Positions 1,659 to 18,040 of a stretch of DNA of 18,040 bases are shown here, one piece after another. Every line of letters starts with the position of its first letter. The first letter of the stretch is position 1. The notes under the pieces were generated by a model. The model was not told the DNA's origin and searched no databases. It saw nothing but the letters and a program-made list of their open reading frames with translations. Position numbers and translations under genes: made by a program. Source of the stretch: an archaeon (GTDB lineage Archaea > EX4484-52 > B79-G9); assembly GCA_030630425.1 (NCBI GenBank), contig DAOVNB010000002.1, positions 1-18,040 on the forward strand, given 5' to 3'.

Positions 1659-1698
1659 CAAAACACCTTTTTCAAACAATAACGCTTGTTTACCCCAG

Positions 1699-4828: not shown

Positions 4829-4848
4829 AAAGGCGACAACAACCTTTT
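4828..4848 (+). terminator. Hairpin with T-run at the end of the HD gene
   Basis: AAAAGG (4828-4833) pairs with CCTTTT (4843-4848) around a nine-base loop, followed by a further T. It begins at the last base of the HD-gene stop codon. A weak intrinsic terminator, or the first element of the hairpin cluster that follows. Confidence 0.45.
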
Positions 4849-5102
4849 TGAGACTCTATAAACATACCCGGGGTGAGTCCACCGCTCACCCCATTAAATT
4901 CATAGTTTCCCTTGACGGGAAAGGTTGCTATTGGTGGGACAATGAGGCGGGGTTTGGAGACAGCCCGCCTCATCAATAATATTCCTGTCTTTTGATTTAT
5001 CAAAAGACTTCAAATCCTTCGGTTTGGAACGATGTATGGAGTTGGCGGACTCGTGATGACACAAAACCGCCATCACCAATGATTAAAGACGGAGAATTGA
5101 AA
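4829..5102 (+). ncRNA. Gene-free region of consecutive perfect hairpins (possible structured RNA or origin)
   Basis: No convincing gene lies between the HD gene and the ATG at 5103. Hairpins follow one another: 4870-4892 (GGGGTGAG/CTCACCCC, 8 bp, loop 7), 4906-4922 (TTTCCC/GGGAAA, 6 bp, loop 5), 4942-4973 (ATGAGGCGGG/CCCGCCTCAT, 10 bp, loop 12), 4987-5008 (GTCTTTTGA/TCAAAAGAC, 9 bp, loop TTTA), 5011-5026 (CAAA-CC/GG-TTTG with one bulge, loop TTC), and 5043-5072 (TGGCGG/CCGCCA). The last competes with GTGATG/CATCAC (5053-5058 with 5071-5076). It could be a structured transcript, a cis-acting RNA for the next gene, or a cruciform-rich origin/packaging site. The strand is assumed from the flanking genes. 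Confidence 0.55.
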
Positions 5103-5240
5103 ATGAAAACAAGAAAGGAACGATATGCTGAAAATAGAAAAGTAAGAAAGACACTCGGGATAATTAGGAGAAAATGTAAATGTTGTGGGTGTTATCTCCC
5201 AAATCGGCACAAAGTATGGTGCAAAGAAAAAAGGCGATGA
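5103..5240 (+). CDS. Cys-rich basic zinc-finger microprotein, 45 aa
   Basis: From ATG 5103, with GGAG at 5091-5094, the protein reads MKTRKERYAENRKVRKT then CKCCGCYLPNRHKVWC and KEKRR. The Cys cluster CxCCxC followed eleven residues later by a Cys resembles the small CxxCG...xWC zinc knuckles, on a strongly basic background, so it probably binds nucleic acid. A longer frame begins inside the hairpin region at 4992 but has no ribosome site and would translate through the stems, so the shorter start is used. Confidence 0.65.
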   Translation: MKTRKERYAENRKVRKTLGIIRRKCKCCGCYLPNRHKVWCKEKRR

Positions 5241-5279
5241 TACCCCAAAAACAGAAAACAAGACGGAGAAGAAATAATT

Positions 5280-5540
5280 ATGGAAAAATCAAAAAGACCA
5301 ATATGGAAACTTAGAACTTTAGTGCTTTATCCACTTACCATTTTTGCTTTTGAGGGGTTGGTTTATTGTTTGAGGGTTGTAGATAATCGTTTGCCGGATC
5401 CGAATAGTGCTGTTGCTATTGCCGCGTTAATCTCTTTGATTTTATTGATAATATATATGTCATTAAGTCCGTTTTGGGTTGCGGGATGTTATGATTACTA
5501 TATTGAATATATGAAGAAAAAAGGGCGGGTAGATGAATAA
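5280..5540 (+). CDS. Two-TM membrane protein, 86 aa
   Basis: Start ATG 5280 has GGAGAA upstream. A basic N-terminus (MEKSKRPIWKLR) precedes a first membrane helix (about 12-31) and a second, longer one (about 43-65, AVAIAALISLILLIIYMSLS), then a tail with YDYYIEYMKKKGR. It begins a run of five small membrane-associated genes with overlapping or abutting ends; its stop overlaps the next ATG (TAATG). Family unknown. Confidence 0.75.
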   Translation: MEKSKRPIWKLRTLVLYPLTIFAFEGLVYCLRVVDNRLPDPNSAVAIAALISLILLIIYMSLSPFWVAGCYDYYIEYMKKKGRVDE

Positions 5541-5773
5541 TGCCAAGAGATGAACCTTTTAGTTGGCGGCCGACACGGGACTTTTACAAGCTCGCACAAC
5601 GGCTCAAGCTGATAGATAAGAACAAAGAGGACATACAGCACGGCGCGAAGTCGCAGACCATAGACAAAGCCGTAGAGATAGCCAACTCACGCCTTGACGA
5701 ACTCGAGGACAGGGCCCGGGGCCTATCAAACACAGAACTTATTATACTGAACAAATTACGGGGGTTGAAATAA
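5540..5773 (+). CDS. Soluble helical protein, 77 aa
   Basis: Translationally coupled to the upstream membrane protein through TAATG. The first half has FSWRPTRDFYKLAQRLKL. The second half is a charged helix likely to form a coiled coil (AVEIANSRLDELEDRARGLS, then ELIILNKLRGLK). Base composition is more GC-rich than its neighbours (for example CGCGAAGTCGCAGACC, CAGGGCCCGGGGCC), which could mean a different origin. No membrane segment or known motif. Function unknown. Confidence 0.75.
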   Translation: MPRDEPFSWRPTRDFYKLAQRLKLIDKNKEDIQHGAKSQTIDKAVEIANSRLDELEDRARGLSNTELIILNKLRGLK

Positions 5774-5932
5774 ATGAAATGGTGTGTAGTGTGTGTTTTA
5801 TGTAATTTATGGATATGTGGTTTTGCTGTTGCTGTGAATATTAATGTAGATGATATTGCCTTTTGGTTTTGGATAATAATTTCTTCCATACTGGGCCTTA
5901 TTTTTTATGATGGGCTTGAGGTGAAAGAGTAA
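5774..5932 (+). CDS. Small two-TM membrane protein, 52 aa
   Basis: The ATG follows the previous stop directly and the stop abuts the next ATG, so the gene is packed like its neighbours. It encodes MKWCVVCVLCNLWICGFAVA, a first Cys-rich membrane helix, then a short polar loop NINVDD and a second helix (FWFWIIISSILGLIF) ending DGLEVKE. The last codons contain the GAGGTG ribosome site for the next gene. It is too short for usual gene-finder thresholds. Unknown family. Confidence 0.6.
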   Translation: MKWCVVCVLCNLWICGFAVAVNINVDDIAFWFWIIISSILGLIFYDGLEVKE

Positions 5933-6127
5933 ATGAAAGAAAAAGTATCACAACTAGAAACATTCATTGCCTTTTTCGGTTTGTTAGTTACTGGTTTATT
6001 ATTAGGTGTAGGTATGGCTCAAGGTAATCTTTTCAAAGTAATAGTTGCTATGCCGCTTGCGGTAATCAGTACAAACTATAGTGTTAAGATTATAGAACTA
6101 ATAAAAGAACGGGGGCTTATGAAATGA
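5933..6127 (+). CDS. Two-TM membrane protein, 64 aa
   Basis: The start ATG has GAGGTG upstream. The sequence has two hydrophobic helices (about 9-30, FIAFFGLLVTGLLLGVGMA, and 34-48, LFKVIVAMPLAVIS) with a Gly-rich first helix, then a charged end (IIELIKERGLMK). Its last bases overlap the next gene's ATGA. A small-hydrophobic (holin-like or scaffold) role is possible but only by general resemblance. Confidence 0.7.
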   Translation: MKEKVSQLETFIAFFGLLVTGLLLGVGMAQGNLFKVIVAMPLAVISTNYSVKIIELIKERGLMK

Positions 6128-6435
6128 AATATAGTATATTTATGATATTGTTGGTGCTTGTACCATTGAGTTTAACAATACCTATGATACAAACAATATT
6201 CCCATTAAATACACTTTTAGGCCAAAGCTTATTTTGGGCTTCAATGGGTTTAGCTGTCTGTGCTATCAGTATGATTCTTGAAAACTTAGGGCAAGAGAAA
6301 TGCCCTAAATGCGGCACTCGTATGGATGAGATACACGATACTTATTACAGGACTATATATAATTGGGATTTACTTTGTCATAAATGCGGATACACAACAA
6401 GAAAAAAGGAAAACAACAATAAAAGGGGCTCATGA
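6124..6435 (+). CDS. Membrane-anchored zinc-ribbon protein, 103 aa
   Basis: Two membrane helices (about 4-25 and 34-53) are followed by a cytoplasmic zinc ribbon: CPKCG at about 60-64 and CHKCG at about 85-89, separated by about 20 residues, then a basic tail (RKKENNNKRGS). The start overlaps the previous stop as ATGA. The topology places a zinc-binding domain on the inner face of the membrane, where it could recruit a partner. Specific family unknown. Confidence 0.75.
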   Translation: MKYSIFMILLVLVPLSLTIPMIQTIFPLNTLLGQSLFWASMGLAVCAISMILENLGQEKCPKCGTRMDEIHDTYYRTIYNWDLLCHKCGYTTRKKENNNKRGS

Positions 6436-6436
6436 A

Positions 6437-6673
6437 ATGACAGAAAATATAAGAGAAAATATCAAAGGACATTTTCATACCGGTGTATTTTATGGCCTTT
6501 GTTTTGGTGGCCCAATAGGACTATTTTTGGTAACATACCCAATACTTGCAATGATTTATGCAGTATTAATATTACTCTTAAAAAATGGTTTAGAAGAAAA
6601 TACATATTTTCATTGCAAAAGTTTGCAAACTTTTGTAACACAATCAAAAAAACGGGGGAAAACTCACGAATGA
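6437..6673 (+). CDS. Membrane protein, 78 aa
   Basis: The ATG at 6437 is chosen because it follows the previous stop by one base with AAAAGGGG upstream; a longer frame from 6326 would overlap the zinc-ribbon gene. There are two hydrophobic segments (about 17-35, VFYGLCFGGPIGLFLVTYP, and 36-48) then a soluble tail with KKRGKTHE. The coding sequence of the tail contains a perfect 20-base palindrome at 6616-6635. Unknown family. Confidence 0.65.
   Translation: MTENIRENIKGHFHTGVFYGLCFGGPIGLFLVTYPILAMIYAVLILLLKNGLEENTYFHCKSLQTFVTQSKKRGKTHE
6616..6643. promoter_or_regulatory. Perfect 20-bp palindrome overlapping a TTGTAACACAA motif
   Basis: CAAAAGTTTGCAAACTTTTG (6616-6635) is its own reverse complement over all 20 bases. 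It overlaps TTGTAACACAA (6633-6643), which recurs at 6748-6758 and in inverted form at 6778-6787. It lies in the tail of the 78-aa gene about 240 bases before the winged-helix gene. This arrangement suggests binding sites for a dimeric regulator. Confidence 0.55.
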
Positions 6674-6870
6674 AAAATTAAAATTGTTCATAAAGTCGGT
6701 TTATTTTGCCCTATTTTACCCCGTTAGGTTGGGGGTAATTGTGCAAATTGTAACACAACTTTTCAAAAACCCCCCATTTGTGTTACAGAACGATTTTAAG
6801 GCAATATTTTTATTCGATAATGCGGATGATTGACAAAAACAGGGGATTTATGTTAAATAGGGGTGGTTGA
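6674..6870 (+). other. Intergenic region with large inverted repeat upstream of the winged-helix gene
   Basis: No gene with a supported start was found in these 197 bases. A frame from 6692 lacks ATG or GTG and a close ribosome site. TGTAACACAA (6749-6758) and TTGTGTTACA (6778-6787) form a perfect 10-bp inverted repeat around a 19-base loop with a six-C run. AT-rich CAATATTTTTATTCG (about 6804-6818) could be a TATA region. A seven-codon mini-frame with AGGGG upstream (ATG 6850, stop 6870) ends against the TTG start at 6871. Confidence 0.5.
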
Positions 6871-7167
6871 TTGTTAGAAGTAGCAGAATATTTTAAGGAT
6901 CATAAACGCACAACAATATCTTACCTTGTGGAATACTTCAAGATACACCACACGGATAAGGTCAGAAACATGAGCGACAAGGCGATTTATATGCATGTCC
7001 GCAGGCAGATAAGACAGTTGATTAAAAGAGATTTGCTTGTCGTTTCCGGGACAAATGAAAAGAACGAATACATATACGGGGCGGTTGATTGTGAAAAATT
7101 ACAAACAGCGATACTGGACGAGATTAGAAAACTGGAACGACAAGAAAAAATACTTGCTATGTATTAG
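6871..7167 (+). CDS. Winged-helix DNA-binding protein, 98 aa
   Basis: Helices at about 2-10, 15-24 (TISYLVEYFKIHH) and 35-53 (DKAIYMHVRRQIRQLIKR), followed by a beta wing LLVVSGTNEKNEYIYGAV, match the winged helix-turn-helix layout of small archaeal regulators. The tail is a charged helix. The TTG start at 6871 has GGGGTGG a few bases upstream. The stop is TAG. Repeated TTGTAACACAA elements and a 20-bp palindrome upstream are candidate binding sites for this protein. It overlaps the next gene by about 77 bases in another frame. Confidence 0.75.
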   Translation: MLEVAEYFKDHKRTTISYLVEYFKIHHTDKVRNMSDKAIYMHVRRQIRQLIKRDLLVVSGTNEKNEYIYGAVDCEKLQTAILDEIRKLERQEKILAMY

Positions 7168-7452: not shown

Positions 7453-8457
7453 TCACATACATAATTCTTCTCGTATCATCTTAGAAAGATTTTGAGCGGT
7501 ATTAATCCCCACACCATAAGTTATTAATATTTTGCTTTTGGTATATTCTTGAAGTTCCGCCGGGCTTTTATTCTTTAAATCTTCTATTATGCCTTTTGTA
7601 GTCCATTTCTTTGTATCTTCATTGATTGCCTTTTCATGTTTGGCTTTAATTGTCGCGAGATATTCCGCCCGTTTCTTTTCGTATGCGTTCGCCAACTTTG
7701 CCGGTATCTTTTGTATTGTCAAATAATCGAGTTTGACATAAAAGCCCTCAATATTTACTTTAGGAATTGGGAAATATAGCTTATCTTGATAGTCGTTATA
7801 ATCGACACCATACGGCTTTACATATCCTATTTTTTGTTTGACGCTGTAACCTTTGGCCTTATAATGCCCGTGAAACAGCATACGGATTTTGCTGTCTATG
7901 AATTTGATAAAAGGCACATTAAAGAACACGATTAAATTATCTGTTCTGAATGTTTCGAGGATTTCTTTAACCGCCCGGTTTTGTTTCGTGTACCAATCAG
8001 TAGATGGCGCGGTTGTTCCTAATTCTTCCCATATAATGACATCGCCCTTTTTGAGCTTGCCGGAGTTAAGAAGTGCAAAAAATTCTTTAGCGGAAAAAAC
8101 AATATGCTCTATTGACAGGTTAGGCATAAAGGACAACGCCAAACCCATACAAGAGTAAGATTTTCCAGAACCCGTCGCCCCTGTAAATATCGCTAAATAA
8201 TTTTGGTTTTTCTCATAAATCCGGGCCTTTATGCTGTTGATGTGGGCGTCATAAACGGCGGTTTCGTTAAAAGGATCCTTATTGTATGTTTGAAATATTC
8301 CCGAACTTCCATTTATGAATGGATCTGTTTTAAGGGCGTCTATTAATGGCGGTTTATTTGAATTTTTAACGCGGCGTTTTGTTATGGTGTTGTTCGCGAT
8401 TATATCCGTGATACTTTTAAACGGATCCAGAAATTCACGGGTTGCGGTTTCGCTCAT
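7453..8457 (-). CDS. P-loop ATPase, likely virion assembly or DNA packaging motor, 334 aa
   Basis: Walker A is GATGSGKS at residues 93-100, Walker B is DVIIWEE at 139-145, a sensor-type Asn is N180 in FFNVP, and a likely arginine finger is R192 (SKIR). The N-terminal 70 residues are polar. The C-terminal 45 residues look like a helix-turn-helix (ELQEYTKSKILITYGVG then AQNLSKMIREEL). The layout is that of compact Zot/FtsK-HerA-like or AAA ATPases of archaeal viruses and plasmids. No membrane segment is present; the 245-aa membrane protein in the same operon could anchor it. Last gene of the operon; its ATG overlaps the previous stop (ATGA). A replicative ATPase is the main alternative. Confidence 0.85.
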   Translation of the reverse strand: MSETATREFLDPFKSITDIIANNTITKRRVKNSNKPPLIDALKTDPFINGSSGIFQTYNKDPFNETAVYDAHINSIKARIYEKNQNYLAIFTGATGSGKSYSCMGLALSFMPNLSIEHIVFSAKEFFALLNSGKLKKGDVIIWEELGTTAPSTDWYTKQNRAVKEILETFRTDNLIVFFNVPFIKFIDSKIRMLFHGHYKAKGYSVKQKIGYVKPYGVDYNDYQDKLYFPIPKVNIEGFYVKLDYLTIQKIPAKLANAYEKKRAEYLATIKAKHEKAINEDTKKWTTKGIIEDLKNKSPAELQEYTKSKILITYGVGINTAQNLSKMIREELCM

Positions 8458-8882
8458 GTTTTCGCCGCCGTTTTAGGTTGCACGCCGTGGGCTGTTTCTA
8501 TTAAATTATAATTTTGGTGTAAAATCATTAAGAGCATTTGTTGAGATATACACAATTCAAAATATTTTTTTCTATTAGTGATTAGCCCGAGGTTTGTTTC
8601 TCCGTATACTTTTCTTTTTTGTTTTTCAATATTGTTTATTCCATCATATATGTCGGGATTTAGAAACAGGTTTTTAAGCAGCAACCCCTTTAAAACCTGT
8701 ATCGAACAATCGAAACTTATAACGGCCTGTTTTTCATATTCCCCCATTGTGGACGCTATAAAATTCATGCGGTCGAGGTGGCGAAACACAATAAAATTAT
8801 ATCCCTGTGTTGCGGTTTGTTTGCTTAAATCGTCGCCTATTTCGTCATAAATCATTTTATTATTTACGCCGCCGCCAATCAT
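8454..8882 (-). CDS. Hypothetical soluble protein, 142 aa
   Basis: Mostly helical and without membrane segment: DEIGDDLSKQTATQGYNF, FRHLDRMNFIASTMGEYE, then a run of hydrophobic helices (IQVLKGLLLKNLFL, YFELCISQQMLLMILHQNY). It overlaps both neighbours by ATGA/TGATG junctions, directly upstream of the ATPase, so it may act with it. An alternative start at the internal Met (NNKMIYDE) would place GGCGGCGG as ribosome site and shorten it by nine residues. No family recognised. Confidence 0.75.
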   Translation of the reverse strand: MIGGGVNNKMIYDEIGDDLSKQTATQGYNFIVFRHLDRMNFIASTMGEYEKQAVISFDCSIQVLKGLLLKNLFLNPDIYDGINNIEKQKRKVYGETNLGLITNRKKYFELCISQQMLLMILHQNYNLIETAHGVQPKTAAKT

Positions 8883-9142
8883 GCTGCAAGACCAACCCGA
8901 ACTTTAAAAGTTCTTATAACGCTTACGAGTTCTTTATTTGCGACAGAATAAAGATATTTCCCATATTCAATTAAGAATTCAAACCCTGTTTTTTGTTCAA
9001 TGGCCCACAACATGGCGGGGACTTTAGATAATGGTTGTTCATCTTCATATATTGTGCGTCCATATGCGTTTTCTTCAAATAGCGTTATTTTAACGCGTGG
9101 CTCACGGCTTGTTTTTCTCAAAAAGTGTTTTTTTGGCACCAT
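8879..9142 (-). CDS. Hypothetical protein, 87 aa
   Basis: The ATG at 9142 is preferred because GGGGGTG lies just upstream; frames extending to 9208 would overlap the previous gene by more than 100 bases. The protein starts MVPKKHFLRKTSREPRVKI and continues with strand- and helix-rich segments (VPAMLWAIEQKTGFEFLIEY, LYSVANKELVSVIRTFKVRV). Basic start, no membrane helix. It overlaps the end of the upstream gene by 41 bases and couples to the 142-aa gene. Function unknown. Confidence 0.72.
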   Translation of the reverse strand: MVPKKHFLRKTSREPRVKITLFEENAYGRTIYEDEQPLSKVPAMLWAIEQKTGFEFLIEYGKYLYSVANKELVSVIRTFKVRVGLAA

Positions 9143-9635
9143 CAACACCCCCGTATTTATAAACTTCATATTGCAGCTTGTATATTTTGTTAAGCCCCGC
9201 CCGGACACTACGCAAAGGGGTTGTAAGCCCTTTCATGGCGAGTTTTTGTTTAGATGTCGCATTGTCGGGATTTATGAAATAATCCGTTGTACCGCTAAAA
9301 AAACGGGGTTCTTCCATGCGTATTTTATAGTTTGTGTCGTCTAAATCTGTTATCTCATCAAATATTACTGTTTCATCCTCTAAATAAGAGAGGTATTGTG
9401 TTTTAGGATCCTTAATCATGGCTTTTTTACAAAACTTTAATTGGCTTGTAAATACCGCGTTCATAAACAGGTTTTTAATTATTTTCGGGGTTTTTTCAAA
9501 GTTGTAGATGTGGCGGATTAAATATTTTTGTGTCGGGCCTGTATTGATTAAAACCTTTTCAATTCCCCGGACTTTCGCCATTTTTGTTTTAATTTTGTCT
9601 AAACGCTTGTTTAGATCCTTATAGTTCTGCCTCAT
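9102..9635 (-). CDS. Hypothetical protein, 177 aa
   Basis: Its ATG overlaps the stop of the membrane-protein gene upstream (ATGA). The N-terminus is a basic helix (KDLNKRLDKIKTKMAKVRG). The middle has LIRHIYNFEKTPKIIKNLFM and an acidic segment (LEDETVIFDEITDLDDTNY), and the end is basic (KYGGVDGAKKTLFEKNKP). It is soluble with no recognised motif. It is conserved in position within the coat-to-ATPase operon and is likely a packaging/assembly or virion protein, by context only. Confidence 0.75.
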   Translation of the reverse strand: MRQNYKDLNKRLDKIKTKMAKVRGIEKVLINTGPTQKYLIRHIYNFEKTPKIIKNLFMNAVFTSQLKFCKKAMIKDPKTQYLSYLEDETVIFDEITDLDDTNYKIRMEEPRFFSGTTDYFINPDNATSKQKLAMKGLTTPLRSVRAGLNKIYKLQYEVYKYGGVDGAKKTLFEKNKP

Positions 9636-10369
9636 TGAACAAGCCCCGCAGCTTTAAGCGACATAAAGAGGTTCGCAACCCCCACAACAAGCGTTATTAA
9701 GAAACCAATAACAAGCAACAACAATATAGTTTTTTCTTTATTGACAACTTTAGACATACCATAAGCAACCGCCAATTTTAGAACTTCGTTAAATCTTGAT
9801 GCGCCAATATCCTTTTTATTTTCTAAAGGGATGCTTTTTGCGCCCTCATCTTCAACAAAAACACAGGGAATGGAAAATAAAGCCGACTGTTTGATATAAT
9901 ATATGTCTTTTTTATCAATTAATCTTTTTTTCTTTTCAAGTTCCGGGTTTAATTCTAATTTTTTGACTTGACGATCAAGAATTTTATTTGCCCGGACATT
10001 AAAATAAACACCATATCCTTTATGCCGTTTCAACAGCAATTTAAAATTTGTAACAATATCTTTCCATGAAAACAGCGCAATACCTGTAAAAGCAAGGATT
10101 GTAAGACTTTCAAAACAGAATAAAAACAAAAGAGCAACCGCCCATACTTTAAGCCCGAGTTGAACATATAAGAAATATCCAAAACCACCAAAAAAGGCCA
10201 TAAGCATAAATCCTATAATTACAATTTTCCAGAACATGGACGGCTCTTTTTTAATGGGTGGGGTATACTCTTTTTTGGGTTCTGTTGCGGGTTCTTCTTC
10301 TTTAATCCCCTCAAAAACATACGATATTTCGGAATCATCTTTTTTCTTTTTATTCGCAAATAAACCCAC
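9632..10369 (-). CDS. Polytopic membrane protein, 245 aa (GTG start)
   Basis: A GTG start at 10369 has AGGTGAT upstream. A cytoplasmic, charged N-terminus (1-45, KKKKDD and Glu/Pro-rich EEEPATEPKKEYTPP) precedes two adjacent membrane helices (about 47-69 and 74-100). A soluble basic domain follows (about 103-212, with KLLLKRHKGYGVYF and KKRLIDKKDIYYIKQS), then one more helix (about 214-236, ILLLLVIGFLITLVVGVANL). The soluble part lies between helices, probably cytoplasmic. This could be the membrane platform for the ATPase or the site of particle budding. No family identified. Confidence 0.8.
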   Translation of the reverse strand: MGLFANKKKKDDSEISYVFEGIKEEEPATEPKKEYTPPIKKEPSMFWKIVIIGFMLMAFFGGFGYFLYVQLGLKVWAVALLFLFCFESLTILAFTGIALFSWKDIVTNFKLLLKRHKGYGVYFNVRANKILDRQVKKLELNPELEKKKRLIDKKDIYYIKQSALFSIPCVFVEDEGAKSIPLENKKDIGASRFNEVLKLAVAYGMSKVVNKEKTILLLLVIGFLITLVVGVANLFMSLKAAGLVQ

Positions 10370-10377
10370 ACTATCAC

Positions 10378-10737
10378 CTACTGTTTAAATGTTTTTTTTG
10401 GGATGTTTCCCCGTTCGACTTTGACCTGCCGGTTGTTAAATGTTGCTTCTAAAGTTTTGCCGCCATACGCCCGCGTCATATTGATTATAAGCCCCTTTTC
10501 ACTCTCGAAAAACCCTTTTGCATCCTCTAATTCATCACTATCTTCACACATAACAAGAATTGTGCTTAAAAAATGCAGTTGTTGGACTTCTTTTTCCCCG
10601 AGATTACCAAGAACGAGATCTATTTTTTCATTTTCATATTTTGGCTCAACAAATTTCTGTTTGAGCATAATGTCATTTTCGACGAAACTTTCGCCGGAAT
10701 ATTCTGTTTCTACTTCGGAACCATCATCTTTTGACAT
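10378..10737 (-). CDS. Acidic soluble protein, 119 aa
   Basis: The ATG at 10737 is used rather than a TTG at 10761 that overlaps the upstream gene. The protein is acidic at first (MSKDDGSEVETEYSGE) and contains IDLVLGNLGEKEVQQLHFLS, an acidic helix (CEDSDELEDAKGFFESEKG) and a basic C-terminus (VKVERGNIPKKTFKQ). The stop is TAG and lies inside the ribosome site of the next gene. No membrane helix or known motif. Confidence 0.75.
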   Translation of the reverse strand: MSKDDGSEVETEYSGESFVENDIMLKQKFVEPKYENEKIDLVLGNLGEKEVQQLHFLSTILVMCEDSDELEDAKGFFESEKGLIINMTRAYGGKTLEATFNNRQVKVERGNIPKKTFKQ

Positions 10738-10741
10738 AAAT

Positions 10742-11068
10742 TTATTCGTCCTTTTCTTCAATAGAAGTAAATATTAAAATTAAGCTTACGAGGAGCCAGA
10801 TTAACGCCAAATATGCCGTTATGCCGTATGTTTGCGTGTCGCAAATAACGGCGTTTGTGTTGGTTGTTGTGTTGCCCGTAACTGTTGAATTTTGGATAAC
10901 ATCAAAACAGTTCGTGACTTCAATCCCCGGGCTTAAAAAAAGATAGCATGAAAAAAGGATCCCAAAAATTCCAGCAAAAGTAATTAAATATTTTTGTTCT
11001 GTGGATTTTGCGATATAAACAAGAAGTGCGGTCATTAAAAACCATGCAGCGAAAACAAAAATATCCAT
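10742..11068 (-). CDS. Three-TM membrane protein with Cys loop, 108 aa
   Basis: Membrane helices at about 3-20, 27-45 and 81-101 enclose an outer loop (46-80) with C54 and C76 and several N-glycosylation sequons (QNST, GNTT). A disulphide in the loop is likely. The C-terminus is acidic (SIEEKDE). The start has a clear AGGTG ribosome site. It follows coat-like protein 1, so a minor envelope/virion protein is likely; a host-entry or fusion role is speculative. No family recognised. Confidence 0.78.
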   Translation of the reverse strand: MDIFVFAAWFLMTALLVYIAKSTEQKYLITFAGIFGILFSCYLFLSPGIEVTNCFDVIQNSTVTGNTTTNTNAVICDTQTYGITAYLALIWLLVSLILIFTSIEEKDE

Positions 11069-11090: not shown

Positions 11091-11106
11091 GGGGGATTCC
11101 GCCCCC
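11091..11106 (-). terminator. GC hairpin after coat-like protein 1
   Basis: GGGGG (11091-11095) and CCCCC (11102-11106) form a five-base GC stem with a six-base loop just downstream of the coat-like gene on the minus strand and about 20 bases upstream of the next start codon. No T-run follows. It is likely an attenuator or RNA-end stabiliser that allows the coat mRNA to be made in excess of the rest of the operon. Confidence 0.5.
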
Positions 11107-11116
11107 GTCGTGTGGT

Positions 11117-11305
11117 TTACCTAACCATTGACACCGCAAGGAATAAACCAGCGATTCCGAGGAAAAGAGGAATAAAACCTACGATGGTACCAGTTGTGCC
11201 TGTTAGATTAGCATCCGTAATTATGCTTTGGGTTATCGGGATAGCTACTGCAACAATCAAGATTGTTCCAACAACAACAGACATTATAGCTCCAGTCATA
11301 GACAT
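11117..11305 (-). CDS. Spindle-shaped-virus-like coat protein 1, 62 aa
   Basis: Two hydrophobic helices (about 6-24, IMSVVVGTILIVAVAIPI, and 39-61, TIVGFIPLFLGIAGLFLAV) are joined by a polar turn, TDANLTGTTG. The layout P-x22-PLF resembles the SSV1 VP1/VP3 pattern, in which two membrane-like helices are separated by an NxT/G/T-rich turn and the second starts L-x-P-L-F. It is the first gene of the minus operon with AGGTG upstream and a hairpin after, as for a highly expressed structural gene. Homology rests on motif and length only. An unrelated small membrane protein is the alternative. Confidence 0.72.
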   Translation of the reverse strand: MSMTGAIMSVVVGTILIVAVAIPITQSIITDANLTGTTGTIVGFIPLFLGIAGLFLAVSMVR

Positions 11306-11386
11306 AAATTAAACACCTCTGAACCGTATCTTTTCGCTGATTACTTTTAAGTAAATAGCACGAATAAGAGTTTAAGAGCTATAATT
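11306..11386. promoter_or_regulatory. Divergent promoter region with TTACTT-TT-AAGTAA palindrome
   Basis: This 81-bp gap separates the two largest operons, read in opposite directions. At 11341-11354 the palindrome TTACTT-TT-AAGTAA lies near the expected TATA position for both directions (starts at 11305 and 11387). TTACTTTTAAGT is one base different from TTACTGTTAAGT near the integrase. It is a likely shared operator or overlapping TATA/operator site for late genes. Confidence 0.6.
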
Positions 11387-14044
11387 ATGGCAGATACTAT
11401 TGTAATTCGGGACAAATACGGAAATATAAAGGCGTCCGGAACAACGGGCAACCTTAAAACTTCTTCTGGAGAGAGATATAACGCCCGTGATAGGTTTAAC
11501 GAATCAACCGTCCGGGCCATGCGGGGCGGCAAAACCATACAAGAAATAAAAGACCAACGGACAAGCGGGAGCCAACATATAATTATTGATGATACGGGCA
11601 ACAGAACCGTAAAAACTGAAAAGACCGCAACATCAAGCCACGCCATACAACGAACAACAACCAAAGGAATACGGATTAACCAAGACCGATATAGACAAAA
11701 ACAGGCAACCGCCCGTTATGTCGGGGCCACAAAGGGAGAAGAAAAGACAATAACCCCCCAAGAACAAAGAGGACAGGCGCGGCAAGACCTTAAATATGCA
11801 AAATCAAGAGCGGACAAATACCGAAATATGGGCGATCATAAAAAAGCACATGAAATTATAACAAAAGAATATATGCCGGCCATGAATGAACTATTTGTTT
11901 CTTCATTTCCAACAGCAAGCGAAGTTAAAGAAAGGGGAAATAAAATAATAAGTCCTGTTGTTTCAGGAACCGATAATTTGGTTAATAAGTTAGGATTAAC
12001 CGGGGGAAGAAAAGAAACAGTAACGCTTGAAATAAAAACAACTCCGGGAAAAACAGAAAAAACAATAATCGAAACAAGAAAAGAATATCCTAATATGTTT
12101 GAAAAAATGGGAATAACCCAAACAAAAGAACAAAAAGAAAATACATATATGAGTTCTCAATTTGGTAAGGGTGTCGCCCGGACGGTTTTAGAAATACCTA
12201 AAACTTCGCTACAATTAGGTGTTGCGGGCGGTACTTTATTTACAGATGTTATAAACGAACCGAAAAAATACACCCCCGAATATGTCGGGGCGGGTGTTGG
12301 TTTAATGGCAACAGGCGTTAAAAAAGGCATAGAAGAAAACCCTGGGGCTTTTTTGGGTTCTGTTGCTGCTTGGGGCGTTGCAGATAAAGGAATTAAAACA
12401 GTTATTCATATACCTAAAACAATACAAAAAAAAGCTATTGATGGGGCTATAATAAACAAACACGGCCACACCATGACAATAGGGGCGGAAAATATCGCAA
12501 AAGAAACCCCGCAAATAATTAAAAAAACATATCAAACAAGCACAAGCAAAGGAAATGTTTTTATTGAAAAAATAGGGACAAAAACAATTAAGGATCCTTT
12601 AAAACTCGCGGATGGCACAATTTTACCAAAAGGAAAATATGACATATTCAATGTTGCCGGGGGTTATATCTCGAAAAGAGGCAAAGCCGTTGTTAAGACA
12701 AAAGGCGGTTATGTTGCGTTTATCAATAAAAACAAAAATGTGTTTGTATCCCACACAAAAGGCAACGCAATAACAGATGTTGAGATGTTCGCCGGTAGAA
12801 AAGCCACTTTTAAGGCCGTTGGGGGCGTAGATGATTTTAAATTAAAAGTACTCAAGAATGAAAAAATATACTCATTTAACCGACACGAAACCCTAATAAA
12901 TGATTTAGGCGTATCAAAACAGCAACAGCAAAACATAGCACGGGTATTTGAAACAAAAAGCGGGGCTATTTCCGGGCTTAAATTACAAAAAGGCGATAGT
13001 GTCGGATTAAGATATAATTTAAATCAAGCCCCCCTAAAAAACAATATATTGGATCGTGGGGGTGTTGCAGCAGCTAAAAAAACAGGAATTAAAATAAAGG
13101 ATCTTCAAAAAGAAAATTGGGATGTTTATTTCTCAAAAAGTAAAAGTTCTGTTGGGGCAAAGGCCAAAACCGGCATTTTTGTAAAACAGGCAGCAAAAGA
13201 AACAAAAGATGTTGCGGGCGGATCCTCATTAAAAACTATTGAAAAATTAGACAAAAAAAGCTTATCTTCTCTTATTGAACCGCTCGAAAAGGCACATATA
13301 AAGATTGCGCATACAGTCCCGCGGGTTGTATCAAAAACAAAAAACGAAATATTAACACCCATAAAAGAAAGTATAAGTTCGGGAATTTCGGGCGCAATAG
13401 GGGTTAAAGAAAAAACAATTACAAAAACCGCCATTATGTTAAGTGCCCCCTTTTCATATAAACAAGCTCAAGAAACAATAACAAAAGAGGCAACTATGAC
13501 AAAAGTTAGAGGGCGAGTAAAACAAAAGAACAAACCCGCTTTTATGCAATTTGTAAGCCCTGCAACCGCAATAACAGTAAAACAAACACAGCGACAAAAT
13601 ATAAAATTATTACAAGGGCAAATGCAGGGACAAAAACAAGCAATAAGACCCATACAAGAAATCGCCCCGAGTATGCCGGCACCAATTACGCCACCGGCAA
13701 AAAGAACAGGAGTTAAATTTAACCCAATAAAACCGCCAATAATGGAAACAGGATTTAAAAAACCACCTTTTGGTTTTGGTTCTGACAGGGATACAGGCCC
13801 TAAAAGAAAAAAAATATCTGTTGGATCCCCCACCGTTAAACGCAAAAAGGACATAAACCCGCTTTATGGTTGGGGGGCGGTTGCCCGTTTTGAAAGTATG
13901 TTTGGGAGAAAAGCCATACACCCGAAAAAAACAGAAAAAGAGAAAAGCAAGTTTAAAAAACACTTACGGCGTAGTGGTTTAGTTTTAGACTACAAAATGC
14001 CGGGGTTAAAATCATTATCTAAAAAAAAGAGGTTTTCATTATGA
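11387..14044 (+). CDS. Large basic protein of unknown function, 885 aa (probable structural protein)
   Basis: No signal peptide or clear membrane helix at the N-terminus (MADTIVIRDKYGNIKASG). Residues 1-190 are polar and basic; 278-341 are Gly/Ala-rich and moderately hydrophobic (GVAGGTLFTDV, VGAGVGLMATGV, FLGSVAAWGVADKG). The middle has many short strand-like segments; about 725-745 is Gln-rich (QTQRQNIKLLQGQMQGQKQA). The last 85 residues carry repeated basic clusters (KRKKIS, KRKKDI, KFKKHLRRSG, LSKKKRF). No enzymatic motif. It heads the structural operon, with weak ribosome site, and couples to coat-like protein 2 by ATGA. A virion interior, DNA-compacting or tail-associated role is inference. 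Confidence 0.8.
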   Translation: MADTIVIRDKYGNIKASGTTGNLKTSSGERYNARDRFNESTVRAMRGGKTIQEIKDQRTSGSQHIIIDDTGNRTVKTEKTATSSHAIQRTTTKGIRINQDRYRQKQATARYVGATKGEEKTITPQEQRGQARQDLKYAKSRADKYRNMGDHKKAHEIITKEYMPAMNELFVSSFPTASEVKERGNKIISPVVSGTDNLVNKLGLTGGRKETVTLEIKTTPGKTEKTIIETRKEYPNMFEKMGITQTKEQKENTYMSSQFGKGVARTVLEIPKTSLQLGVAGGTLFTDVINEPKKYTPEYVGAGVGLMATGVKKGIEENPGAFLGSVAAWGVADKGIKTVIHIPKTIQKKAIDGAIINKHGHTMTIGAENIAKETPQIIKKTYQTSTSKGNVFIEKIGTKTIKDPLKLADGTILPKGKYDIFNVAGGYISKRGKAVVKTKGGYVAFINKNKNVFVSHTKGNAITDVEMFAGRKATFKAVGGVDDFKLKVLKNEKIYSFNRHETLINDLGVSKQQQQNIARVFETKSGAISGLKLQKGDSVGLRYNLNQAPLKNNILDRGGVAAAKKTGIKIKDLQKENWDVYFSKSKSSVGAKAKTGIFVKQAAKETKDVAGGSSLKTIEKLDKKSLSSLIEPLEKAHIKIAHTVPRVVSKTKNEILTPIKESISSGISGAIGVKEKTITKTAIMLSAPFSYKQAQETITKEATMTKVRGRVKQKNKPAFMQFVSPATAITVKQTQRQNIKLLQGQMQGQKQAIRPIQEIAPSMPAPITPPAKRTGVKFNPIKPPIMETGFKKPPFGFGSDRDTGPKRKKISVGSPTVKRKKDINPLYGWGAVARFESMFGRKAIHPKKTEKEKSKFKKHLRRSGLVLDYKMPGLKSLSKKKRFSL

Positions 14045-14259
14045 GAAGAAAAGGACAGCTAACTTTTGACGGCATCTTAATGGGCTTTTTGCTACTTGTT
14101 GTTTATGTCGCCCTATTGCCCGCAATAAATGAAATGGTTAGTACGGCGTTGGGGCTTACAAGCGGCATGACATCGGTTATTCTGATATTGTTCCCTTTGT
14201 TTATGCTATTGGGGATAATACGCGGAATGTGGGGTTATGGCTCATTTACAAGCGGTTAA
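14041..14259 (+). CDS. Spindle-shaped-virus-like coat protein 2 with prepilin-like N-terminus, 72 aa
   Basis: Two hydrophobic helices (about 11-27 and 43-62) flank a polar turn (NEMVSTALGLTSG), with a Pro at the end of the first helix and FPLF in the second, as in coat-like protein 1 (11117-11305). The N-terminus MRRKGQLTFDG resembles a class III (archaeal prepilin) signal, [KR]-G-|-Q-L before a hydrophobic stretch, suggesting cleavage by a prepilin peptidase. Start by ATGA overlap, with AGAGGTTTTCATT as leader. Major or minor capsid protein is the best guess. A pilin-like protein is the alternative, and the two ideas are not exclusive. Confidence 0.7.
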   Translation: MRRKGQLTFDGILMGFLLLVVYVALLPAINEMVSTALGLTSGMTSVILILFPLFMLLGIIRGMWGYGSFTSG

Positions 14260-14439: not shown

Positions 14440-14642
14440 TGTCTAAATTTATGCAGATAATCGGCAAAGTTGGTAAGAAAATAGGAACCGCTATTAATGA
14501 TTATCGTAAGGAAAAGGCCGAAGAACGAAAAATCTATAAAGACGCTGCAAAGCAGGAAAAAAGAAAACAAATACGCTTAAAAGCAAAAAAAGACATACGC
14601 GACAAAAACAAAAGAAAAAAGGATCTTTGGGGCGACTTATGA
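14439..14642 (+). CDS. Basic coiled-coil protein, 67 aa
   Basis: The ATG at 14439 overlaps the previous stop and has AAAAGGTG just upstream; an in-frame GTG at 14430 is less likely. An amphipathic N-terminus (MSKFMQIIGKVGKKIGTAI) is followed by a long helix made almost only of Lys/Glu/Arg/Ala (RKEKAEERKIYKDAAKQEK, then KRKQIRLKAKKDIRDK) ending KRKKDLWGDL. Net charge is strongly positive, so it likely binds DNA or membrane. It couples to the spike gene by ATGA. A virion nucleoprotein role is plausible by analogy with basic VP2-like proteins. Confidence 0.7.
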   Translation: MSKFMQIIGKVGKKIGTAINDYRKEKAEERKIYKDAAKQEKRKQIRLKAKKDIRDKNKRKKDLWGDL

Positions 14643-17482
14643 ATAAAAAACTGTTAATAGGATTATGTATATTCTTATTAGCGATTAGCCCGGCGTATGC
14701 GTGGGACGACGCAAATTATGGATACAGGAAAGCCATAAACACAAGCGGGAGTACAAACAACGATTACCAAGTGGTTTTTAATTGGACTTATTCGCCAAAC
14801 CAACAGGCAGACATGGACGATTTTAAATGTTATTCGGAGGGCGGCGTTTTGCTTAATCATTGGGTGGAAAATAAAAGCGATAGTGAGTGGGCGTATATTT
14901 GGCTTAAAATGGATACAACCACAGCAAGCACCATAAAAGCATATTGTTATTACGGTTATGTATCCGCAACGAGTTTAAGCAATATTGATACAACTATGTT
15001 GTTCGGTGATGATTTTAACGACGCGTCGGTTAATGCCTCTAAATGGGCGGAACATTCAAGCTTAAACACCGGAACCATGACCGAAAGCGGCGGCGAGTTT
15101 ATCGTAACCGGCGGTGCGGCGAATTATGAATTGGTACACGGGCAAACCGAATTTAGTTACCCGGTAATTTTAGAGGGTAAAATTAAAATGAACGAAAGCG
15201 GTTCGAGTTCGTGGTTTGGTTTAGACGACCGCGCCCCAAGTGGCGGGGCAGATGGGGGAATCGACCAAGCAGTATTTTTTTACTCTACATCAAGCCAATA
15301 TCGAACTATGTTAGATGGTTCGGCGACCGCAACAGCAAGAGCGGACAGTTTGGATACATATAAAAGAACAAAAATTGAATATATAAGCACTACTTCGACA
15401 AAATTTTATATAACTGATATGACAACACCAAAATGGACTTCAACCGGAGACCGACCGACCGATAATATGGGGGTTTATTTTGCAGCTTGTACTGTTTCAA
15501 ATGTTATAACTTCTGACTGGCTCTTTATTAGAAAATACAACACAACAGAACCGACAATATCCATAGGCATAGAAGAAAACCAAACAGGCAATACCCCCCC
15601 AAGCATAACAATAAACACCCCGGGAAATACGACATACTATACAACTTCAATACCGGTTAATATTACCGTTTCGGATACCGACAGCCCCGCGTTTTGGTGT
15701 GCTATATATAACGACGGGGTATTATTACAGAATGAAACCACAAACACCACATACACAACAACCTTGACAAAAACCGGCGGGGCGCATAATGTAAGCGTTC
15801 ATTGTGACGATTACACCGTCACAAGCGACGACGCAGAATATTATTATGTTTTCATGGGGCTTAATGTATCCCTTTTTGACGGTGGGACAGGGGCAACACT
15901 TACAAGTTGGAATATATACGCAACCAACGGGACTTTTAATTATTCGGATACGGGCCTTACAAACCCGACATTAATTGATATTTTCGATTTACCCACAGGA
16001 TCCGTTAATATTACTTTTGAAAAGCCCGGGGGGAATTACCAAAACAGCACATACACCCACACTCTTAATAATTCCGCGCTTGTAGAACTTGCAGCAGATG
16101 TTTATTATAATCAATATTTCTATATCCGGGACATTGACACAGACGCCCTTATATCAAGTTCAAATATTGAATTAACCAACGGCACAAATACAACAAACGG
16201 GAATTTGTCGGCGGGTTCTGTTACCTTTGGCCTTGATGTAATCCCGTGGGGAACTGTAAATATTACGGGTTCCGCTTTTGGTTATGCCCCCAACACAACA
16301 GAAATAACAATTAATGGATCTTCCCAAATATCATATACAACCTATTTGAGAAAAGCGGGTTTGTATCTCGAGGCGAAAGACGAAGAAACATACGCAGCTT
16401 TAACCTTTAATATAACGATTTTAAACTCGACAACTTCGGAAACATGGACGGAGCAGACCGCATTTAATAAGGATTATACACAGTTGGCGACCGGCTACAT
16501 CACAATAAAGGTTACGGCCACAGACTACCCCCAACGCAATTATTACGCAACCATGACGCAATACACCGCATTAAGTTTTGACGCTTATTTATTGAAAGAA
16601 ACAACGGGCCATAATGTGGCTATGGTAATTTTAAACAATAATGATGTTCCGCTACAAAGCGCAACAGTTACAGCAACGAAATTTATTAATGGATCGTGGG
16701 TTTCAGTAGAACAGGGCGAAACGGACAGTTCCGGGACAACTAATTTATTTTTGGATATGTACACCCAATACAAAATAAAAATAGAACATGGCGACATTGT
16801 AACCTTTTACAGGACATTAACCCCCTCTGCAAATTCTTATACTTTCCGGGTGTCCGGGCAGATAGAATTAAATTTTTATAATCTGTTCGAGGGGATCAGT
16901 TATTCAATAATTCCCATACAAAACAGCATTTTAACAGAACAGACAAATTTAAGTTTTGTGATAAGTTCGGCAACGGGGGAGTTGGAATATTTCGGGTATA
17001 TTGTTGAAGATAACGACCATAACGAAATCACAACAGGTTTAATTGATTCTTCGCCGAGCGGGGCAGAAATGATTTATGAGTTGGATATTTCAGCTTTAAA
17101 TTATTCTGTTGGGGACAATATTTATTTTTATACTTATTTCAAAAGAGCAGACACAGACGAGGCGACGTATACCCGCTATTGGATAAATAAAACATATGTC
17201 ATTTGGATTTACACCGACAGCAACACGACAATTATTGACGCATTGGATCAGTTTAGCGCGGAGAACACAAGCGAACTTGCGATGTTGTTTATAGCAACTA
17301 TGATAATGGCGTTATCGTTGGGTGGTTTGGGGGTTATGATCCAGCGCGTAGATGTGGCTATGTTGGTGGCCTTAATGGAATTGGGCGTTTTTGTTATGAT
17401 TGGTTGGGTTCCGTTCTTTGCGGGTTCTGTTGCCGGGCTTTTCGGTATTATAATATTATTTTCGTATGTGATGGGTGGTTAA
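14639..17482 (+). CDS. Secreted DUF2341/LamG-like surface (spike) protein with C-terminal anchor, 947 aa
   Basis: Start ATG 14639 (ATGA overlap); an in-frame codon at 14627 is unlikely since the signal sequence begins here. Signal peptide at 1-21 (cleavage after AYA). Residues 22-120 match DUF2341 (WDDANYGYRKAI, the DDFKCYS segment, WAYIWLKMDT, YCYYGY). A LamG/ConA-like sandwich follows at about 122-310 (DDFNDASVNASKW). An Ig-like domain lies at about 318-405 (PPSITINTPGNTTYYTT), then repeated carboxypeptidase-regulatory-like beta modules to about 740 with many N-x-S/T sequons. The last 70 residues have three membrane helices. It is probably the virion attachment protein. PAV1, as I recall, carries LamG-type large proteins, supporting a spindle-virus link. 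Confidence 0.85.
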   Translation: MNKKLLIGLCIFLLAISPAYAWDDANYGYRKAINTSGSTNNDYQVVFNWTYSPNQQADMDDFKCYSEGGVLLNHWVENKSDSEWAYIWLKMDTTTASTIKAYCYYGYVSATSLSNIDTTMLFGDDFNDASVNASKWAEHSSLNTGTMTESGGEFIVTGGAANYELVHGQTEFSYPVILEGKIKMNESGSSSWFGLDDRAPSGGADGGIDQAVFFYSTSSQYRTMLDGSATATARADSLDTYKRTKIEYISTTSTKFYITDMTTPKWTSTGDRPTDNMGVYFAACTVSNVITSDWLFIRKYNTTEPTISIGIEENQTGNTPPSITINTPGNTTYYTTSIPVNITVSDTDSPAFWCAIYNDGVLLQNETTNTTYTTTLTKTGGAHNVSVHCDDYTVTSDDAEYYYVFMGLNVSLFDGGTGATLTSWNIYATNGTFNYSDTGLTNPTLIDIFDLPTGSVNITFEKPGGNYQNSTYTHTLNNSALVELAADVYYNQYFYIRDIDTDALISSSNIELTNGTNTTNGNLSAGSVTFGLDVIPWGTVNITGSAFGYAPNTTEITINGSSQISYTTYLRKAGLYLEAKDEETYAALTFNITILNSTTSETWTEQTAFNKDYTQLATGYITIKVTATDYPQRNYYATMTQYTALSFDAYLLKETTGHNVAMVILNNNDVPLQSATVTATKFINGSWVSVEQGETDSSGTTNLFLDMYTQYKIKIEHGDIVTFYRTLTPSANSYTFRVSGQIELNFYNLFEGISYSIIPIQNSILTEQTNLSFVISSATGELEYFGYIVEDNDHNEITTGLIDSSPSGAEMIYELDISALNYSVGDNIYFYTYFKRADTDEATYTRYWINKTYVIWIYTDSNTTIIDALDQFSAENTSELAMLFIATMIMALSLGGLGVMIQRVDVAMLVALMELGVFVMIGWVPFFAGSVAGLFGIIILFSYVMGG

Positions 17483-17866
17483 ATGAACGGGGCCGCAATT
17501 TTGATTATGATGTTAATGTTTAACTTCCTTACGGTTATGGGGGGCTATGCCGATAATAGTTTATTGAATAAATTTATTATTGTGGATACGACAGAAGAAA
17601 CCGTTATATCATCAAATGAGCTTACAGACGCGATAAATACGGATTTCAACAATACCGGATCCGTGACTATTACAAACATAATGAGTAGTTACAGTCCGCT
17701 TATTTTTATGTGGAATTTCTTTATTTTTATATTGGGTACCTTGTTTGCGCCGTTTATGGTTTTCGGTTTCGGGTTGCCTTTGATGTTTGCGGTTCCGCTG
17801 TTCATAATGTGGTTTATAACTTATATGTTCTGCATATACGCATTACTCCGGGGGGTGTCGTTCTGA
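17483..17866 (+). CDS. Membrane protein with small ectodomain, 127 aa
   Basis: The ATG abuts the spike stop, with GGGTGG upstream. Helix 1 spans about 4-20, an outer segment 22-68 is acidic and Asn/Thr-rich (DTTEETVISSNELTDAI) with one sequon (NNTG), and helices 2 and 3 span about 71-95 and 98-122. Its stop overlaps the next start (TGATG). It likely pairs with the spike in the envelope, given their adjacency, but no family is recognised. Confidence 0.78.
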   Translation: MNGAAILIMMLMFNFLTVMGGYADNSLLNKFIIVDTTEETVISSNELTDAINTDFNNTGSVTITNIMSSYSPLIFMWNFFIFILGTLFAPFMVFGFGLPLMFAVPLFIMWFITYMFCIYALLRGVSF

Positions 17867-18040
17867 TGGTTGCAGGGTACACAACAACAGAATTTTACGA
17901 CATTATTATACAGAATTTCACAACCTATGTTACGGGTTCTGCGGTATTGACCGGGCTTTTGATATTCACGGGTTTGTTAATATTGTTTGTCAAAACAGGG
18001 TTCCCACTTCCTATAATCCTTGTAATAATGATACCTTTAG
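17866..18040 (+). CDS. Small three-TM membrane protein, 5' part (continues at 1)
   Basis: The first 58 codons of the 93-aa protein completed at 1-248. The start overlaps the preceding stop (TGATG) and the protein begins MVAGYTTTEFYDIII. The window ends inside the gene because the circular unit has been read past its join; 17900-18040 repeats 1-141. See the entry at 1-248 for the helices. Unknown function; last membrane gene of the structural operon. Confidence 0.85.
   Translation, partial: MVAGYTTTEFYDIIIQNFTTYVTGSAVLTGLLIFTGLLILFVKTGFPLPIILVIMIPL
17900..18040. repeat. Terminal direct repeat (circular join), right copy
   Basis: Identical over 141 bases to positions 1-141, so the window holds one full circle plus this overlap. 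Confidence 0.93.

Follow-up and report, generated by a model that had tools for sequence, protein, structure and literature searches.

Introduction

The Fuselloviridae include Sulfolobus spindle-shaped virus 1 (SSV1), whose coat proteins VP1 and VP3 are described in PMC9608457 as glycosylated, each with two N-X-S/T motifs. The same source describes the end-filament protein VP4/C792 as belonging to the absolute core of this family, in which A82, A92, C166, A154 and B115 are also counted. Two divergent coat genes have also been reported for the Itzamnaviridae (PMC9894754). This paper concerns a comparable pair of genes in an archaeal contig of 18,040 nucleotides, termed the window (contig C35 of the source metagenome-assembled genome (MAG), G000). 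A spindle-type virus outside the Fuselloviridae, associated with a DPANN archaeon, is the probable source of the window, which would be its complete circular genome. The 62 amino acid (aa) and 72 aa proteins would be two anciently diverged hairpin coats of the VP1 type.

The two hairpin proteins

The two proteins are encoded on opposite strands:

11117–11305, minus strand: 62-aa hairpin protein, candidate major coat, with an N-X-T sequon (N33) in the turn (open reading frame, family, profile, structure prediction).
14041–14259, plus strand: 72-aa hairpin protein, candidate second coat, with RRKG/QL at its N-terminus (the slash marks the putative cut) and closest to fusellovirus VP1 (open reading frame, PHROG, PDB, profile).

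Each protein has two hydrophobic segments. Prolines are at positions 23 and 46 of the 62-aa protein and at positions 27 and 52 of the 72-aa protein, with 22 and 24 residues between them, and in both the second proline begins the sequence PLF. Blastp shows a 37% identity between the two proteins over 38 residues. The predicted structure of the 62-aa protein is an alpha-helical hairpin. In database clusters, with the query counted, the 62-aa family has 42 members and the 72-aa family has seven. Within the 62-aa family, P23, P46 and F48 are among the residues that do not vary, and residues A32, N33, L34 and T35 of the turn are nearly invariant. All 42 members of this family carry an N-X-S/T sequon, as against 2/7 of the 72-aa family.

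The proline pattern was expressed as a broad motif ([ILVF]P, 19–30 residues, [ILVF]P[LV][FLI]) and a strict motif (P, 20–30 residues, PL[FL]). Controls were 170 hairpins taken out of other membrane proteins, together with 12 small open reading frames with two transmembrane segments; the control DNA was 560 kb (masked bases included) of the source MAG and two genomes of its phylum. The broad motif is found in 41/42 members of the 62-aa family and 7/7 of the 72-aa family, compared with 2/170 control hairpins and none of the 12 small open reading frames; the strict motif is found in 31/42 and 6/7, compared with 5/170 and 1/12 (family members share kinship, so these counts are not independent draws). 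Both motifs fit SSV1 VP1 and His1 VP21, and neither fits SSV1 VP3, which has a longer loop. An earlier note on this DNA had pointed to two helices, a proline, about 22–24 residues and PLF in both proteins. This pattern is confirmed, together with the coordinates, strands and lengths given there, and it is rare in the controls.

Relationship to fusellovirus VP1

Fusellovirus coat sequences were taken from named records. By hhalign, the 72-aa family matches fusellovirus VP1 at 92.9% (score 39.2), the 62-aa family matches it at 63.7% (score 28.5), and the two families match each other at 93% (score about 40). The best of the 170 single control hairpins scored 21.2 against VP1, 21.5 against the 62-aa family and 21.2 against the 72-aa family. 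When single members were compared with VP1, 35/42 of the 62-aa family and 7/7 of the 72-aa family were above every control, and 42/42 and 7/7 were above the 95th percentile of the controls.

Two other direct partners were tried and rejected. With fusellovirus VP3 only 1/42 and 0/7 members were above every control. With His1 VP21 the values were 0/42 and 0/7, and one control hairpin reached 84% against His1.

SSV1 VP1 belongs to phrog_11172 (E-value = 1.2e-44). All seven members of the 72-aa family match this PHROG (E-values 0.0027–0.32), as the first match in six and as the second in P0049. It is also matched by 25/42 of the 62-aa family (best E-value 0.0014), where phrog_9175 ties at 25. The 62-aa protein of the window itself showed no match to phrog_11172 in the PHROG scan, which covered 22 window open reading frames. 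In the PDB, the 72-aa protein alone has SSV19 VP1 as its first match (E-value = 0.11), and the family profile with the Archaeoglobus profundus homologue again gives SSV19 VP1 first (E-value = 8.6e-5; the next match has 0.25). The 62-aa family profile has a type IV pilin as its first PDB match (E-value = 0.28) and VP1 is not found; with archaeal homologues added to the profile, VP1 is second (E-value = 1.7). Single-sequence searches of the PDB, phages, PHROGs and Pfam with the 62-aa protein gave nothing useful, and family profiles were needed. SSV19 VP1 is absent from the match list of the second predicted structure. A later structure model was built from the 72-aa family alignment A6; the first row of this alignment is the A. 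profundus homologue, which is what was modelled.

From sequence comparison there is strong support for the 72-aa protein as a member of the SSV VP1-type hairpin coat superfamily, and moderate support for the 62-aa protein. The earlier note had called both proteins SSV1-type coats and suggested profile searches against fusellovirus and His1 coats. With respect to VP1 the proposal stands for both families, with the difference in strength just given; VP3 and the His1 coat, as direct partners, are only at the level of the controls.

A 71-aa relative on a 42-kb IMG/VR contig (L002:1719–1934) matches the 62-aa family at 98%, fusellovirus VP1 at 86% and His1 VP21 at 79%. It may be a bridge between coat groups, the last value to be read beside the 84% that a control hairpin reached against His1.

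Organization and placement of the element

Other features of the window are:

1–141, no strand: terminal direct repeat, same as 17900–18040, read as the assembly overlap of a circle.
750–1679, minus strand: tyrosine recombinase (integrase), phrog_1, E-value = 7e-8.
7453–8457, minus strand: 334-aa P-loop ATPase of the SSV1 B251/His1 ORF16 family (phrog_5484), in which it is a distant member.
8454–8882, minus strand: 142-aa conserved operon protein, kept in relatives.
8879–9208, minus strand: 109-aa conserved operon protein, kept in relatives.
9102–9635, minus strand: 177-aa conserved operon protein, kept in relatives.
9632–10369, minus strand: 245-aa conserved operon protein with hydrophobic segments, kept in relatives.
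10378–10761, minus strand: 127-aa conserved operon protein, no function assigned, kept in relatives.
10742–11068, minus strand: 108-aa membrane protein adjoining the coat gene; position kept in L006 and L007, possibly in the A. profundus locus L144 (28% only).
11387–14044, plus strand: 885-aa protein, head of the right operon, with a 4-bp overlap with the 72-aa gene (open reading frame, relatives).
14639–17482, plus strand: 947-aa adhesin-like protein (DUF2341) whose C-terminus is hydrophobic, a candidate for a tail or receptor-binding function.
17483–17866, plus strand: 127-aa hydrophobic protein, conserved in L006.

The first and last 141 bases of the window are identical, which gives a circle of 17,899 bp. 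This is inside the range of 11–19 kb of the fusellovirus genomes in the records compared. The ATPase matches phrog_5484 (E-value = 3.8e-7; 8.4e-10 for the L006 homologue), which is also the family of SSV1 B251 (5.2e-101) and of His1 ORF16 (2.8e-62). The 947-aa protein displays DUF2341 above the cut-off and an immunoglobulin-like match below it. It has no PHROG match at E-value = 1 and so no match to VP4 (phrog_6848), a family that SSV1 C792 does match. No polymerase match was found among the four window open reading frames longer than 300 aa (recombinase, ATPase, 885-aa protein and adhesin), and none of the 22 scanned against PHROGs matches phrog_8228, the family of C166. Positions 4208–4828 encode an HD-domain phosphohydrolase-like protein of the phage-associated family phrog_5889 (E-value = 7.6e-25).

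A collection of 50,697 phage records was searched by tblastn with the 62-aa protein, the 72-aa protein and the ATPase. The 62-aa protein gave zero matches and the 72-aa protein gave a Caulobacter phage at E-value = 3 and nothing else. The sole match of the ATPase at E-value = 1 is Haloferax virus LSV-48N (1e-14). Because these searches found almost nothing, a new lineage is plausible.

The element has a hairpin coat related to the VP1 type and an ATPase of the SSV/His1 type, and on these sequence grounds its membership in the broad spindle-type kind is well supported. Of the Fuselloviridae characters it has the circular genome in the size range and lacks a VP4/C792 end-filament protein match; the linear genome with its own PolB of the Halspiviridae is not found, the window being circular with no polymerase match. 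The element is not placed in either family. It would be a new lineage of an already known kind, as the two-coat set itself is already in print for the Itzamnaviridae. The claim that the two coats would identify a new spindle-virus lineage is plausible from sequence as regards the lineage, but two divergent coats alone do not mark one (Itzamnaviridae; VP1 and VP3 in Huangdiviridae).

L006 (WAOB01000038.1) and L007 (JALWJP010000121.1), both DPANN group archaeon records, have the gene order of the window: 62, 108, 127, 245, 177, 109, 142, ATPase to one side and 885, 72, adhesin to the other. L006 and L042 are the same contig by coordinates; it is 17,893 bp long and its terminal repeat measures 151 bp. 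Window and L006 proteins are 78% identical for the 62-aa protein and 65% for the 72-aa protein.

A second circular element is found in the same MAG (L040, G000:C32, positions 1–18859, with a 141-bp terminal repeat). It displays three patches of 94–98% identity to window positions 4801–6872, and its adhesin is 42% identical. A perfect 20-bp palindrome, CAAAAGTTTGCAAACTTTTG, is identical in the window (6616–6635) and in L040 (15425–15444), inside a shared patch. The L040 ATPase matches phrog_5484 (E-value = 1.8e-6). Its coat module is different: a 98-aa hairpin (9741–10037, minus strand) matches the virion structural protein phrog_16261 (E-value = 3.7e-4). It looks as if whole coat modules have been exchanged between viruses of one host. 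In L041 (G002:C131), a relative from the same host genus, an 885-aa-like protein (27%) is kept, and hairpins occupy both coat positions. Two of them are neighbours, one of 60 aa and one of 150 aa whose loop is long, and these match each other at 94.7%. The similarity of these L041 hairpins to the 62-aa family, the 72-aa family or VP1 is not above the controls.

Host evidence

The tetranucleotide profile of the window correlates with that of the source MAG (r = 0.70), and with six other genomes at most at 0.26. The L042 contig shows 0.87 with G026, 0.84 with G017 and 0.73 with G240. A 4,729-bp piece 99.98% identical to L042 also sits in the unrelated bin G240, which makes the bin by itself a weak guide to the host. 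With eight candidates scored per genome, no match resembling a CRISPR (clustered regularly interspaced short palindromic repeats) spacer was noticed. The host assignment by bin is soft, and a DPANN host is proposed here with that reservation.

Proposed roles of the two proteins

The coat model is based on sequence relations, gene order, the terminal repeat and the fold predicted for the 62-aa protein. From these we infer membrane assembly, a division of roles, processing, a spindle shape of the particle and the host. Each coat protein would insert into the host membrane as a two-helix hairpin and then coat the budding particle. The 62-aa protein may be the major coat: its gene is the first of the ATPase operon with a GC hairpin behind it, and the glycosylation sequon in its turn would face outward. 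The gene of the 72-aa protein lies between those of the 885-aa protein and the adhesin; this protein may be a second coat, either with the role that VP3 has in SSV or placed close to the end of the particle that bears the adhesin. A short leader would be cut from it at RRKG/Q.

Divergent region and GC hairpin

Two intergenic features may be regulatory:

11306–11386, no strand: 81-bp divergent region common to both operons, with an imperfect palindrome, TTACTTTTAAGTAA, over a TATA-like core (sequence).
11091–11106, minus strand: GC-stem hairpin directly 3′ of the 62-aa gene, located likewise in relatives and possibly a terminator or attenuator.

In L007 the best palindrome of the contig is in the divergent region, perfect over 22 bp and centred around TTTATAAA, and the best-ranked inverted repeat of L040 is at the divergent promoter. 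As a general palindromic operator this candidate was rejected: it has rank 1 in L007 and L040 but is below the scan threshold in the window, L006 and L041. In the window, L006 and L007 the coat gene has a perfect stem with at least five G-C pairs behind it, and so have the candidate coat genes in L041 and L040; such a stem is unique in L006, L007 and L041 and is one of three in the window. The folding energy of the GC hairpin is better than that of shuffled sequences in L006, L007 and L040; the values for the window and L041 are ordinary (z = -0.43 and 0.08).

The arrangement suggests one switch shared by both operons, with a possible attenuator behind the major coat gene. The earlier note had argued that genes on opposite strands in separate operons could be regulated differently. 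The opposite strands are present in the window, but both operons diverge from a single 81-bp gap, and in A. profundus the coat genes share one strand, adjacent or approximately 6.5 kb apart. Separate regulation of the two coats is not supported as a conserved feature.

A possible processing site

As reported in PMC5748691, SSV1 VP1 is made as a precursor and the virion protein has an N-terminal glutamate. Residues 61–65 just before it are essential and the glutamate is not; the protease is given there as unknown. The sequence at the VP1 cut is [KR][GA]/E in 8/8 fusellovirus VP1s, a count that leaves out a ninth VP1 fetched (L032), whose annotated open reading frame begins inside helix 1. A basic-[GAS]/[QE] site before the N-terminal hydrophobic helix is found in 6/7 members of the 72-aa family (RRKG/Q in the window) and 24/42 of the 62-aa family, compared with 3/153 control proteins with an N-terminal transmembrane segment. 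The 62-aa protein of the window itself does not have the site. It is present in the leader of 4/9 homologues on archaeal chromosomes (L132, L133, L137 and L140) and absent from the other five. A coat site of this type resembles class III signal peptides. A stricter FlaFind-like pattern fits 3/8 VP1s, 26/42 and 6/7 of the 62-aa and 72-aa families, and 12/153 controls.

Peptidase_A24 genes are present in 30/34 genomes of the phylum, the source MAG included (27 over the cut-off). As a tentative proposal from sequence patterns, a host prepilin peptidase (PibD/FlaK type) may mature spindle-virus coat precursors and be the protease of SSV1 VP1; of the two coats, one (VP1; the 72-aa protein) would be processed and the other (VP3; the 62-aa protein of the window) would not. 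Such an enzyme would fit the VP1 findings described in PMC5748691, with residues 61–65 essential and the glutamate not. A Sulfolobus islandicus strain with pibD disrupted is reported to adsorb SSV9 without productive infection, which the paper ties to pilins (PMC7217056). Among the papers listed by the searches made, title and abstract start showed no printed link between VP1 and prepilin peptidase. If true, the proposal would be a testable answer to the open question of which protease matures SSV1 VP1.

Archaeoglobus profundus loci and distribution

The 62-aa family is found in 3/34 genomes of the phylum and 5/394 across the domain (the source MAG is counted in both). A search with added archaeal sequences gave 8/294 genomes of the A. 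profundus phylum, the weakest of which (E-value = 7.8e-4, in a 605-codon frame) is doubtful. A. profundus (G346) has three such loci (L112, L113 and L144). A pleomorphic provirus has been reported from this species (PMC10919331).

L144 carries both coat families, an SSV-type ATPase and an adhesin-like protein. Its order, on one strand, is a 131-aa coat, a 106-aa protein, later a 326-aa ATPase (phrog_5484, E-value = 3.4e-29), an 854-aa protein and, in overlap with it, an 80-aa 72-like protein (hmmsearch E-value = 1.5e-26 among the open reading frames of the locus), and a 730-aa lectin-domain protein. Hhalign of window against L144 proteins gave 90% for 72 versus 80 and 96% for 947 versus 730, a weak 28% for 108 versus 106, 5% for the two ATPases and 0.3% for 885 versus 854; the remaining operon proteins had no match. 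Single A. profundus coats match the 62-aa family at 96–97% and the 80-aa protein matches the 72-aa family at 90%. By profile comparison, single 62-like A. profundus coats gave no VP1 match, and an alignment of nine archaeal homologues matches VP1 at 87%. The two coat genes are adjacent in L113 and about 6.5 kb apart in L144. L147, a relative of these loci, repeats the order 839, 80, 895. The presence of the two-coat set in both DPANN elements and an Archaeoglobus provirus suggests that the second coat is old and useful and not a recent duplicate.

The L144 coat (9713–10105) has a long N-terminal extension before RKG/T, of a length like the SSV1 VP1 propeptide; the profile comparison did not reach into the extension. 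On a 2.59-Mb archaeal chromosome contig, a coat-like protein (L137, G584:C1:959523–959699) has NLTGTT in its turn, as in the DPANN family, and the gene of a 301-aa P-loop protein is nearby.

Alternative explanations

The 62-aa protein could be no coat but a pilin-like, holin-like or ring-forming membrane protein. The pilin as first PDB match of its family profile, the class III-like site in 24/42 members, a V/A-ATPase ring subunit that ties in the fold comparison and a match to holin phrog_263 at E-value = 0.79 all point this way. A pilin, however, would have a globular domain behind helix 1, which the predicted structure lacks; the 93% profile match to the 72-aa family, itself VP1-like, and the 25/42 members that match the SSV VP1 PHROG make a non-coat function very unlikely. 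Somewhat unlikely is an exchange of roles, with the 72-aa protein as VP1 counterpart and main building block and the 62-aa protein as the secondary coat. Both the profile comparison (93% versus 64%) and the PDB searches place the 72-aa family nearer to fusellovirus VP1, and this family keeps the VP1-like site motif, which the 62-aa protein of the window does not have. Against this, the 62-aa family is wider (42 versus 7 clusters), is better conserved between window and L006 (78% versus 65%), has the sequon in 42/42 members versus 2/7, and has the GC hairpin behind its gene. The 62-aa protein is preferred as major coat.

Two explanations concern the particle. The hairpin fold may be correct while the virion is rod-shaped (clavavirus-like) or of the pleomorphic membrane type. 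The coats of Aeropyrum pernix bacilliform virus 1 (APBV1), Sulfolobus monocaudavirus 1 (SMV1) and SSV19 are compared as one group in PMC10866085; since APBV1 is bacilliform by name, shape is not fixed by a hairpin coat, and pleomorphic proviruses are described for A. profundus in PMC10919331. A spindle shape is favoured by the ATPase family, common to SSV1 and His1, both spindle-shaped, and by the large adhesin-like gene near a coat gene, so that another shape is unlikely. Highly improbable is a defective plasmid or satellite that has kept coat genes and does not make particles. Particles are not known and the contig comes from a MAG, but the open reading frames are intact and the same block is found in L006/L042 and L007 at about 20–78% protein identity. 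A spindle-type virus with two hairpin coats is the preferred interpretation.

Comparison with known systems

Among the titles listed by the literature searches there was none on a spindle virus of DPANN hosts, or of Archaeoglobus. There is reportedly a 2024 survey of DPANN viruses, which did not turn up in the search and may include the group of the window.

The element shares with the Fuselloviridae (SSV1, SSV19) two hairpin coats, a circular genome of similar size, a B251-family ATPase, an integrase and a large adhesin-like protein. Like SSV VP1, both window proteins start helix 2 with the Pro...PLF arrangement, the 72-aa protein has the basic-[GA]/[EQ] site before helix 1, and the 62-aa protein has the sequon-bearing turn. 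In the Fuselloviridae, however, VP1 and VP3 are neighbouring genes, while the window pair is on opposite strands and 2.7 kb apart; the two SSV1 coats are nearly identical at the C-terminus, and those of the window are not. The window coats also have no tblastn match in phage records, and there is no VP4 (phrog_6848) match.

With His1 (Halspiviridae) the element shares the spacing Pro...PLL of VP21 and the ATPase PHROG (phrog_5484), but His1 is linear with its own PolB, and its coat matches the window families at control level only. Haloferax virus LSV-48N has the ATPase matched by that of the window in tblastn. The Itzamnaviridae of ANME-1 (anaerobic methanotrophic archaea, group 1), predicted to be spindle-shaped, likewise have a circular spindle-type genome with two divergent coat genes, as described in PMC9894754; their host is ANME-1 and not DPANN, and the coats were compared by description only. 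The Huangdiviridae of Bathyarchaeia are described in PMC10848311 as having VP1 and VP3 hairpin coats with N-X-S/T sequons. They differ in an ATPase reported closest to that of Acidianus two-tailed virus (ATV), again by description only (PMC10848311).

Locus L144 of A. profundus resembles the window in the order of its genes: members of both coat families, an ATPase of the SSV type, a large protein whose gene has a 4-bp overlap with the 72-like gene, and an adhesin-like protein. The A. profundus loci differ from the window in having both coat genes on one strand, a long N-terminal extension on the L144 coat and a hyperthermophile host, and the large protein and several operon proteins of L144 have no detectable similarity to those of the window. 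The element would extend spindle-type viruses to a small DPANN phylum.

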